A stretch of DNA of 64,000 nucleotides. Origin: Bacilli bacterium. GTDB taxonomy: Bacteria; Bacillota_I; Bacilli_A; RFN20; CAG-826. Shown here one piece after another: positions 39,957-44,023 of the stretch. Made by a program: the position numbers and the translations under genes. The notes beneath the pieces were generated by a model. It was given only the letters and a program-made list of their open reading frames with translations, searched no databases and was not told where the DNA came from. The stretch is from NCBI GenBank assembly GCA_022653695.1, contig JALCSW010000004.1:1-64000 (forward strand). Reading direction: 5' to 3'. Numbering within the stretch: the first letter of the stretch is position 1; each line of letters begins with the position of its first letter.

Positions 39957-40742
39957 ATGCGGATTCTCTTCTATGGGGATATCGTCGGCAAGATCGGCAG
40001 GGAGGCCATCAAGGCCTCTTTGCCGTCTTTGGTCCGGTCGAAGGGGATCGATTTCGTGATCGCCAACGGCGAGAACGCGACGCATGGGAAAGGGCTCAAC
40101 GAAAGCCACTACCACCAACTCGTTTCCTATGGGGTCGATTGTTTAACGCTAGGCAACCACTGGCATTCCAAACCGGTCATCGACGAATACATCGACGAGG
40201 CCGAGCATCTCGTCAGGCCGCTTAACCTGATCGATTGCCACCATGGCCTTGGAAGCGCCTCCTACGACGTGGATGGGGTCGAAATCAGGGTCACGAACGT
40301 GATGGGGCAGGCTTTCATGAAAGAAACCGTGGGCTCGCCCAACGAAGCGATGGAGAAACTGCTGTCCGAAATCGACCCGTGCGTCCATATCGTCGATTTC
40401 CATGCCGACAGCACGAGCGAAAAAGAAGTGTTCGCCTATCTTCTCTCGGGCCGCGTCAGCGCGGTCGTCGGGACCCACACCCACGTTCAAACCAACGACG
40501 CTAGGATCCTCGAAGGCGGGACGGCCTACATCAGCGACGTCGGCATGTGCGGGGCCGCCGATGGGGTCATCGGCTTCGAGAAGCATTCCGTCATCAACAA
40601 AGTCGTCTATGGCCAAAAAGGCATTTTCGAAATCGACGACGACGCGCAGCCAATGGTGAACGCCGTCGTCATCGACGTCGATGAGTCGACCTATCGGGCC
40701 ACTTCGATCCGAACCCTCAATCTATTGGAGAATAAGCGATGA
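39957..40742 (+). CDS. ymdB: YmdB family metallophosphoesterase
   Basis: MRILFYGDIVGKIGREAIKASLP..DFVIANGENATHGKGLN..VVGTHTHVQTND. Confidence 0.96.
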   Translation: MRILFYGDIVGKIGREAIKASLPSLVRSKGIDFVIANGENATHGKGLNESHYHQLVSYGVDCLTLGNHWHSKPVIDEYIDEAEHLVRPLNLIDCHHGLGSASYDVDGVEIRVTNVMGQAFMKETVGSPNEAMEKLLSEIDPCVHIVDFHADSTSEKEVFAYLLSGRVSAVVGTHTHVQTNDARILEGGTAYISDVGMCGAADGVIGFEKHSVINKVVYGQKGIFEIDDDAQPMVNAVVIDVDESTYRATSIRTLNLLENKR

Positions 40743-42481
40743 GTAAGTGCGTGTACCGTTCCCTGCCCGACATGAGCAAGGCCCGCAACCGGGTCGATGG
40801 GCCTTTATTTTTCGAGGGCGAAAAAAAGATCCCCGCCGAAATCGGCGCGTACGCGAAAGGCCGCCGCTTCTTCATCCGCACTTACGGCTGCCAAGCCAAC
40901 ATCCGCGACGAAGAAATCATGGCGGGATACCTTGCCTCAGCCGGTTTCTCGAGAACCGAAAACGAGTCCGAGGCCGATTTGGCGATCATCAACACCTGCG
41001 CCGTCCGGGAGAACGCGGAGGACAAGGTTTACGGCCAAATCGGGGTTTTCAAAGCCAACGCCGACAGGAACCCTTCCTTCATCCTCGCCGTTTGCGGTTG
41101 CATGATGCAGGAGGAGGGCGTGGCGGAGAAACTCACGAAAACGTACCCTTACCTTTCCCTCGTTTTCGGGACCCACAACGTGAGCGATATCCTTTCGCTT
41201 CTAAACGAGGTCATCGTTTCGCGGAAACGGCTCGTCGACGTGAAAAGCTTCCCCGGGGCAATAATCGAGGGGATGCCCTCCGTCCGCCTCGATGGCTACA
41301 AGGCGTTCGTGAACATTTCTTACGGATGCGACAAATTCTGCACCTATTGCATCGTCCCTTATACGCGAGGCCGGGAACGGAGCCGCCGCCCCGAAGCCAT
41401 CCTCAAGGAATGCGAGGATTTGGCCGAGCGCGGTTTCAAGCAGGTCACCCTTTTGGGTCAAAACGTCAATTCGTACGGCCTTGATTTTAAGGATGGGACC
41501 ACTTTCGCTTCCTTGCTTGACCAAGTGGCCGGCCTCGACATTCCGCACGTCCGTTTCCTCACCTCTTACCCGAGCCAGTTCACCGATGCGATGATCGACG
41601 TCATGGCCCGTCACCCCAACATCGACAAATGGCTTCACCTTCCGGTTCAGTCCGGCAGCGACAGCTGTCTGAAACGCATGGGCCGCCGCTACACGAGGGA
41701 AGGATACCTTGACTTAGTGAGGCGCATCAGGGCGAAGATCCCCTCCATCGCCCTCACGACCGACCTCATCGTCGGCTTCCCCAACGAAACCGCCGCCGAA
41801 TTCGAGGACACGCTGAGTTTATGCCGTGAGGTTTCCTACTCCTCCGCTTTCATGTTCATCTATTCGCCGCGCCGAGGGACCCCGGCCGCCGCCATCAAGG
41901 ACGGCGTGGGCTCCGAGGAGAAGCACGCGAGGTTCCTCCGCCTTTCTAGAGTCATCGAGGAGACCACGTCGAAGCACTCCCTCTCCATGGTTGGTGGAAC
42001 CTATTCCGTCTTGGTCGACGGCCCCAGCAAAAAGGACCCATCGGTCCTTTCGGGTTACGCCCCCAATGGCAAATTGGTCAACTTCAAAGGGCCGCTTTAC
42101 CTTAAAGGCGCCGAGGTTCCGGTCAAAATCAAGGAATCCCACACCTATAGCCTCATCGGGGAAATGGTCGGCGAGGCGATCGTCCACAAAGCCGAGGACG
42201 TCGCTTATTTGCTGAGGCGCGATCCTCTAGCGAAGGAATATCTCCGTCTTGACGAAGCGGTCCGAGGTGATCCGGAAATCAAAAAGCTCGGCGAGGACCT
42301 CGTCTCCGCCAAGAAGGCCATGGCCTTATCGATGGGGCGGAGCGAGGAATACGAGGCCGCGAAAAAGACGTATGAAGGGTTGCTTAGAAAAATCAAGAAC
42401 CATCCGCTTTTGGCCAATCGCGCCGCTTTGCAAGGGGCGGTGGAGGATATCCTCCTGCAGGTGAGGGACAGCCTGAAATGA
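40739..42481 (+). CDS. miaB: tRNA-2-methylthio-N6-dimethylallyladenosine synthase MiaB with C-terminal YlbF/YmcA-like domain
   Basis: MTTase N-domain, radical-SAM CDKFCTYCIVPYTRGRERSR, TRAM; final ~96 aa (from 42191) helical YlbF-like. Confidence 0.95.
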   Translation: MSKCVYRSLPDMSKARNRVDGPLFFEGEKKIPAEIGAYAKGRRFFIRTYGCQANIRDEEIMAGYLASAGFSRTENESEADLAIINTCAVRENAEDKVYGQIGVFKANADRNPSFILAVCGCMMQEEGVAEKLTKTYPYLSLVFGTHNVSDILSLLNEVIVSRKRLVDVKSFPGAIIEGMPSVRLDGYKAFVNISYGCDKFCTYCIVPYTRGRERSRRPEAILKECEDLAERGFKQVTLLGQNVNSYGLDFKDGTTFASLLDQVAGLDIPHVRFLTSYPSQFTDAMIDVMARHPNIDKWLHLPVQSGSDSCLKRMGRRYTREGYLDLVRRIRAKIPSIALTTDLIVGFPNETAAEFEDTLSLCREVSYSSAFMFIYSPRRGTPAAAIKDGVGSEEKHARFLRLSRVIEETTSKHSLSMVGGTYSVLVDGPSKKDPSVLSGYAPNGKLVNFKGPLYLKGAEVPVKIKESHTYSLIGEMVGEAIVHKAEDVAYLLRRDPLAKEYLRLDEAVRGDPEIKKLGEDLVSAKKAMALSMGRSEEYEAAKKTYEGLLRKIKNHPLLANRAALQGAVEDILLQVRDSLK

Positions 42482-43353
42482 CGATCGTTCTGACGGGGCC
42501 GACGGGAAGCGGCAAAAGCGAATTGGCCGTTCGCCTCGCCAAGGCCATCGACGGGGAGATCGTCAACGCCGACGCCTTTCAGGTTTACGAAGGAATCCGC
42601 ATAGCGACCGCCGCCCCCTCGGAAGAGCTTAGAGCCCAGGTTCCGCACCATCTCTACGGTTTCGTGCCGCTTGAGGAAAATTACGACATCGCCCGTTACC
42701 AAAAGGACTGCCGCAAAGCGATAAAGGGGATTTTGTCCCGCGGAAAGACGCCGATTCTCGTCGGCGGGAGCGGACTCTATATCCGCTCCGCTCTCTTCGA
42801 CTATGATTTCTCGGTGGACGCCTCAAAGGCGGATTTGGCCCCTTTCGAATCGCTTTCCGCCGAGGAACTGCACGCCAAATTGGCCGAGCTTGACCCAACT
42901 GAGGCTTCGAAAATACCCTACCAAAACACTCGGCGGACCCTTCGGGCGATCGCCATTTGCCTCGCCGCCGGGGAGAGCAAGACCGCCCTCATCGCCCGGC
43001 AAAGCCATGCCCCGGTTTTCGAGGCGATGTTCTTCGCTTTATTCAAGGAACGCGACGAATTGTACCCTCTGGTGGAAAAAAGGGTTGAGGAAATGTTCGC
43101 CGCGGGCCTTGCGGAGGAGACGATTCCGCTTGTGAGGAAGTACGGCCGCTCCCCCCACGCCTTCAAAGCGATCGGGGTCAAGGAGTTTTTCCCCTATATC
43201 GACGGCAAAGCCACGTTGGAGGAAGTCAAGGCCTCCATCAAACGGAACACCCGCCACTACGTCAAGGAGCAGGAGACTTGGTTTCGGCATCAATTCGATC
43301 TGACATACGTTTCCTCGTTAAGGGAGATAATGGATAAGTATGGGCATCGATGA
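42478..43353 (+). CDS. miaA: tRNA dimethylallyltransferase MiaA
   Basis: VLTGPTGSGKSELAVRLAKAIDGEIVNADAFQVYEG.. Confidence 0.97.
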   Translation: MTIVLTGPTGSGKSELAVRLAKAIDGEIVNADAFQVYEGIRIATAAPSEELRAQVPHHLYGFVPLEENYDIARYQKDCRKAIKGILSRGKTPILVGGSGLYIRSALFDYDFSVDASKADLAPFESLSAEELHAKLAELDPTEASKIPYQNTRRTLRAIAICLAAGESKTALIARQSHAPVFEAMFFALFKERDELYPLVEKRVEEMFAAGLAEETIPLVRKYGRSPHAFKAIGVKEFFPYIDGKATLEEVKASIKRNTRHYVKEQETWFRHQFDLTYVSSLREIMDKYGHR

Positions 43354-44023
43354 GCGAACCGCTTTGCTTTTGGGTCCCGAGGGGGTCAAGAGGCTCCGTC
43401 AAGCCACGGTGGCGGTTTTTGGTTTGGGCGGGGTCGGGGGGACCGCGTTCGAGGCCCTTTCCCGCGCCGGGGTCGGGACGCTTTACGCAATCGATTGCGA
43501 CCTCGTCGACGAAACCAACCTCAATCGGCAGATCCTTTTTTCGAGGCAAGACGTCGGATGCGGCAAGGCCGAAGCCGCCCAAAGGCGCGCCCTTTCGATC
43601 CGCGAAGACGTCAAAGTCATTCCCGAATCCTATGCCGTGTCCGCCGATTCCTTGCTCAGCCACGATTACTCCTCCTGCGATTATCTGCTTGACTGCCTGG
43701 ACGACATCGGCGCGAAAACGGCCCTGATCGAATACGCGAAATCCCATGCCATCCCCCTGATCGTTTCCCTAGGGATGGGGAACCGCATCGACGCCACGAA
43801 AGTCATCGTCACCAGCCTCGAGAAAACCCAAGGCGATCCGTTGGCCAAGAAGCTTCGGAAGGCCCTGAGGGACAAAAAAATCGATTTGTCGACCGTCCTC
43901 GTCGTTTTTTCGACGGAGGCGCCCATTAATAAAGGCCCCAAGCCGTCTTCGCTCATGATGGTCCCTTCGAGCGCCGGCCTCGCCATGGCGAGTCGCGTCA
44001 TAGATTTCCTAGAAAAGCGCTGA
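43340..44023 (+). CDS. tcdA: ThiF/HesA family, TcdA-like tRNA threonylcarbamoyladenosine dehydratase
   Basis: ..VAVFGLGGVGGTAFEALSRAGVGTLYAIDCDLVDETNLNRQ.. Confidence 0.88.
   Translation: MGIDERTALLLGPEGVKRLRQATVAVFGLGGVGGTAFEALSRAGVGTLYAIDCDLVDETNLNRQILFSRQDVGCGKAEAAQRRALSIREDVKVIPESYAVSADSLLSHDYSSCDYLLDCLDDIGAKTALIEYAKSHAIPLIVSLGMGNRIDATKVIVTSLEKTQGDPLAKKLRKALRDKKIDLSTVLVVFSTEAPINKGPKPSSLMMVPSSAGLAMASRVIDFLEKR

Follow-up and report, generated by a model that had tools for sequence, protein, structure and literature searches.

A MiaB protein with a C-terminal RicA/YmcA-type domain, encoded in the RNase Y operon of a Bacilli bacterium

The miaB locus and the MiaB part of the fusion protein

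The window analyzed here (the whole stretch of 64,000 nucleotides from contig JALCSW010000004.1, assembly GCA_022653695.1 of a Bacilli bacterium) encodes a MiaB protein with an additional C-terminal domain; its features and those of the neighboring genes are listed in Table 1. The fusion gene overlaps the upstream ymdB and the downstream miaA by an ATGA each, and rny, ymdB and miaB either overlap or lie a few bases apart, with rny located two genes upstream of miaB. Together with the conservation of the gene order recA-rny-ymdB-miaB-miaA in related genomes, this spacing bears out the rny-ymdB-miaB operon block proposed in the initial annotation of the sequence. The product of MiaA, i6A37, is the substrate of MiaB, and RNase Y is the nuclease served by RicA, RicF and RicT in Bacillus subtilis. 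Downstream of miaA we observed a ThiF/E1-like frame (43340-44023, named by resemblance only), which is kept at this position in several relatives.

Table 1. Coordinates of the miaB-ricA fusion gene, its domains and neighboring genes in the window
Feature	Position	Strand	Remarks
rny, RNase Y (RNase_Y_N, KH, HD), 528 aa	38359..39945	+	
ymdB phosphoesterase, 263 aa	39951..40742	+	
miaB-ricA fusion gene	40739..42481	+	580 aa, single uninterrupted open frame
UPF0004 (methylthiotransferase N-terminal) domain	40865..41170	+	residues 43-144 of MiaB
Radical SAM domain of MiaB	41309..41821	+	residues 191-361
TRAM domain of MiaB	41984..42169	+	residues 416-477
TRAM-RicA junction	42170..42178	+	~3 residues: last TRAM strand (471-476) to first RicA helix (480); corresponds to the miaB stop and overlapping ricA start of unfused relatives
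RicA/YmcA-type Com_YlbF domain	42179..42478	+	residues 481-580, five predicted helices, no cysteine
miaA, tRNA dimethylallyltransferase	42478..43353	+	start inside miaB stop

The first 477 residues correspond to an ordinary MiaB, comprising the UPF0004, Radical SAM and TRAM domains. The protein scores 497.7 bits with the curated equivalog model TIGR01574 (cut-off 355.3), and both the Fe-S cysteines of the UPF0004 domain (C51, C87 and C121) and the CxxxCxxC motif of the Radical SAM domain (C197/C201/C204) are invariant in an alignment of 51 sequences. The best PDB fold matches of this part are MiaB crystal structures. In score, in the six metal-binding cysteines and in fold it thus resembles the known MiaB (PDB 7mjv-7mjz), whose models and structures, however, do not cover the extra C-terminal domain of ~100 aa.

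Identity of the C-terminal domain

The initial annotation had taken the region that follows TRAM for a YlbF/YmcA (RicA)-like domain, an assignment that the profile and fold comparisons uphold and narrow down to RicA over RicF. The Pfam family Com_YlbF (PF06133), whose members in Firmicutes include RicA (YmcA), RicF (YlbF) and YheA, matches residues 481-577 (42179-42469) with an E-value of 1.4e-6 and 29.2 bits when the whole protein is searched, and with 3.8e-8 and 34.2 bits when the tail is searched alone, the gathering cut-off being 23.9 bits; the model is covered over positions 1-98 or 1-99 of its 105. In an alignment of fused tails and free RicA proteins, 67 of the 70 members have a Com_YlbF match. 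A single-sequence search of PDB sequences with the tail gave nothing significant, the tail having diverged too far. A profile built from the fused tails of the two main genera only, with free RicA left out, retrieved B. subtilis RicA first among PDB entries (6prh and 2pih, 9.1e-7 and 1.6e-6), with RicF (0.0055) and a DUF964 protein (0.018) behind it; an alignment profile containing Bacillus RicA sequences was set aside as evidence. The window tail scores 63.5 bits with a profile of free RicA versus 18.8 bits with a RicF profile, and the RicA profile is preferred in all fused tails compared (54/54). RicF has the Pfam family and the fold in common with the tail, but stays a separate gene, and this ranking and the difference in score rule it out as the identity of the tail.

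The AlphaFold2 (AF2) model of the tail comprises five confident helices (mean pLDDT 94.1), i.e. a folded domain. In a Foldseek search its eleven best PDB matches are all Com_YlbF proteins, with the RicA-RicF crystal complex on top and query-normalised TM-scores of 0.61-0.67 to 6prk, 2pih and 6prh (probability 1.00). The individual E-values are weak (best 2.7e-3), with probabilities of 0.91-1.00 across the eleven matches, and it is the consistency of the list, not any single E-value, that counts. In the model of the full-length fusion (mean pLDDT 89.9, pTM 0.86) the last TRAM strand ends at residue 476 and the first RicA helix begins at 480; therefore the RicA domain is predicted to be held close to the TRAM domain by a linker of ~3 residues.

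On sequence and predicted fold we regard the C-terminal domain as an orthologue of RicA/YmcA by descent, and we consider this identification strong. Like RicA of B. subtilis (2pih, 6prh, 6prk), it is a Com_YlbF domain of helical fold that directly follows miaB in a genome also encoding RicF, RicT and RNase Y; unlike B. subtilis RicA, it forms the C-terminal end of a MiaB protein instead of a protein of its own.

When the window is compared with its nearest relative (G015), the tail has a dN/dS of 0.069 and the core one of 0.074. In other close pairs the tail ratio is 0.07-0.20 where it could be computed, and in several pairs the tail evolves faster than the core. Since these ratios are low, we conclude from the substitution pattern that the tail is maintained by purifying selection. 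A chance or disordered tail was considered and ruled out by the conservation of the tail across many species, by purifying selection and by the confident fold. Near the former ricA position, 9 of 54 fused genes have an in-frame start accompanied by a ribosome-binding-like site; in the window gene the only candidate is a TTG, with GAGG at a distance of 11 nt. It thus appears unlikely in general, though it may occur in single cases, that free RicA is made from an internal start.

Origin and spread of the fusion

In nearly all loci examined of unfused relatives, the end of miaB is overlapped by, or directly adjoins, a free ricA gene of 91-115 aa, in keeping with the earlier statement that ricA lies beside miaB in B. 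subtilis. The overlap is most commonly 8 nt, nearly always with a +1 offset; a typical unfused junction (L188) reads GGAGAATTAGTTAATGAATAA, with the miaB stop within the overlap. A GGAGA motif, often present at free-ricA junctions (L033-L039, L166-L206), lies within the codons for the conserved Gly-Glu pair at the end of TRAM and is likely the ribosome-binding site of free ricA. In the fused genes the miaB stop is gone and both frames agree, and their junctions lie several substitutions, not one indel, away from those of the free relatives. An ancestral, co-translated and overlapping miaB-ricA pair would have lost the miaB stop by a change that also shifted the frame at the overlap, welding the two proteins with almost no linker.

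The survey of related genomes suggested in the initial annotation found the fusion, with no internal stop, in 68 of 279 genomes of the order. It is present in 36 of 37 species of the genus of the window (g1), where the exceptional genome has a miaB cut short at 432 aa, and in 29 of 31 species of the sister genus g21, i.e. in 65 of 68 species of the two genera across deep divergence. Three further fused species (L032/G203, L167/G180 and L184/G207) are isolated within otherwise unfused genera; the closest tree relative of L032/G203 (L172) is unfused, and the three fusions look like independent events. The MiaB tree, obtained by a short search with SH-aLRT support only, requires five state changes, for which the simplest reading is four gains (in the common ancestor of g1 and g21, in G203, in G180 and in G207) and one loss (in G114). 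In the latter, a g21 genome (L191/G114), miaB (ending in GELA) and ricA are again in two frames with a +1 overlap; the gene may truly have split again, or the assembly may be at fault.

All fused cases in a 392-genome sample of the phylum fall within one family. The sources of named records are roe deer omasum, goat and buffalo rumen and horse faeces, and several of them are identical in MiaB to g1 or g21 genomes; Candidatus Fiminaster equi, of the same family, is unfused. A record titled Chryseobacterium sp. ISL-80 (L086, JAGGQZ010000001.1) has a Bacillaceae-like miaB, 49% to the window, is listed next to Neobacillus and is probably mislabelled or contaminated.

The genomes concerned, from uncultured gut bacteria, are metagenome-assembled and each of the three isolated fusions is known from a single assembly, which raises the question of whether an assembly indel has joined two genes. 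Such an artefact is hardly credible given the number of uninterrupted fusions in the order, the several substitutions that separate the junctions, and the agreement between the window and G015, whose synonymous changes run through the tail; for the two main genera we reject it. From the comparison of junctions we conclude that the fusion arose from an overlapping miaB-ricA pair; it is real and old, and it arose several times.

Why the fusion exists is a separate matter. In a small genome, overlapping genes forming so very short a pair may have fused neutrally, with each half working as before and nothing fixed beyond the stoichiometry of the two proteins; we lean slightly towards this explanation, which is compatible with a bifunctional protein. 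In nearly all relatives the two genes overlap with a common frame offset, so that the ancestral pair was only a small change away from fusion; on the tree the fusion was gained about four times and undone once; and the position of GGAGA inside the TRAM codons of miaB suggests that production of the two proteins was probably coupled before the fusion. The long retention of the fused state in g1 and g21 speaks against neutrality, although persistence alone is no proof of benefit.

Partners of the fused RicA and the possible working of the complex

The only two Com_YlbF loci in the genome of the window are the MiaB tail and a free protein of 121 aa. The latter is encoded beside rsmD and coaD (neighbors named by resemblance), which is where ylbF lies in B. 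subtilis. Because of this context we identify the protein as RicF, and its score with a RicF profile agrees. The initial annotation had named a separate complete RicA elsewhere as an argument against a fused RicA; neither a second RicA nor a third Com_YlbF locus was found in the genome (1.29 Mb, 79% complete), although at this completeness a second ricA may lie in the missing part. The free RicF is no objection to the fusion of RicA, because the Ric complex needs RicF anyway. A RicF-specific profile finds a match in 20 of 20 genomes tested, fused lineages included (weakly in G029), which speaks against a loss of RicF in some species of the genus. Wherever a suitable profile was applied, the fused genomes have both RicF and RicT, and nearly all the remaining ones have them too; the two g1 genomes that gave no match in the RicF/RicT survey are incomplete. 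In a sub-group of g1 (G018, G022, G025, G032 and G011) RicT (L224-L228), RicF and the fused tails (L124, L126-L129) have jointly diverged, the tails falling below Pfam significance, which suggests that RicT, RicF and fused RicA are evolving together there.

RicT of the window genome and of 39 relatives has the exact motif CX4CCX30CX4CC with six cysteines (40/40 cases). As described for B. subtilis and its relatives, RicT by itself holds cluster 1, whereas the ligands of cluster 2 are RicT C167, RicF C134 and C146, and RicA C141 (PMC6751060). RicA or RicF of Geobacillus stearothermophilus without the C-terminal tails cannot hold RicT (PMC6751060), and formation of the RicT-RNase Y complex in B. 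subtilis requires cluster 2 (PMC10470536). The C-terminal tail of ~30 aa in B. subtilis RicA, whose C141 binds RicT and completes cluster 2, has no counterpart in the window RicA, which lacks cysteines and stops right after the last helix. RicF of the window genome lacks cysteines as well, including equivalents of C134 and C146. A C-terminal cysteine is present in 17 of 21 sampled RicA proteins of the Bacillaceae type. In the sampled order, free RicA proteins (L033-L039, L166-L210) do not have the cysteine-bearing C-terminal tail of Bacillus RicA, and the C-terminal cysteine pair is absent from most of the RicF proteins examined (e.g. L001 and L213), while RicT keeps its six. The Ric system of this order is thus apparently without the known cluster-2 ligands. 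Because unfused relatives also lack the RicA tail, its loss predates the fusion. Judging from these residues, cluster 1 is probably kept, while cluster 2 could not be built in the known way and the window RicA could not serve as a ligand as B. subtilis RicA does. With the RicA tail and the cysteines of both RicA and RicF missing, the loading of RicT must either work differently in its details or have been lost.

These observations bear on the coupling between Fe-S status, tRNA modification and mRNA decay at which the initial annotation had hinted. Such regulation, in which the Fe-S/SAM status or tRNA engagement of MiaB would control the availability of RicA and the targeting of RNase Y, we consider unlikely. 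It agrees with both Fe-S cluster motifs of MiaB, all six cysteines of RicT and the short modelled linker between TRAM and RicA, but the shared cluster lacks its ligands from RicA and RicF, those from RicA since before the fusion. Because the RicA cysteines are already absent from unfused relatives, the fusion is not the carrier of an Fe-S link; what stands of the suggestion is that MiaB and RicT are both Fe-S proteins, and beyond this the sequences lend Fe-S coupling no specific support. A switch in which the tRNA-bound, Fe-S or SAM state of MiaB would gate RicA-RicF pairing and RicT loading, without the shared cluster 2, appears to us very improbable.

The absence of the tail and cysteines from RicA, and the strong divergence of the fused tails in part of the genus, could also mean that the domain has left the Ric complex and become an accessory module of MiaB, e.g. 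for dimerisation or tRNA handling. We find this quite doubtful, as RicF and RicT are retained alongside the fusion and every fused tail compared still scores as RicA.

Instead, we regard it as quite probable that MiaB-RicA is a bifunctional protein, in which the RicA half continues to form a pair with RicF and, with it, loads RicT onto RNase Y. The MiaB half would carry out the methylthiolation of i6A37 in tRNA. By analogy with B. subtilis, on which heterodimer formation, RicT loading and RNase Y targeting are all modelled, the RicA half would form a heterodimer with the free RicF encoded elsewhere in the genome, which in turn would load RicT onto the RNase Y encoded in the same operon as the fusion. 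The fusion would most likely fix equal amounts of the two proteins. A link of the Ric complex to the translation machinery would make sense, since ribosomal RNA is among the targets to which the Y-complex of B. subtilis guides RNase Y under stress (PMC13230545).

The conserved synteny of miaB and ricA has been noted before (PMC6751060). We found no mention of a MiaB-RicA fusion in the open-access literature searched, and a Staphylococcus aureus paper on the iron control of miaB does not mention ymcA or operons. The architecture is therefore new to the literature searched, although both of its halves are known proteins that were already neighbors. A recurrent and stably kept fusion is a stronger hint than gene order that the two proteins occur at the same place or in matched amounts in the cell, and the single MiaB-RicA polypeptide offers a ready tool to ask whether MiaB meets the Ric complex. 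In turn, a Ric system that lacks the cluster-2 ligands of RicA and RicF but possesses a six-cysteine RicT allows the purpose of cluster 2 to be asked.
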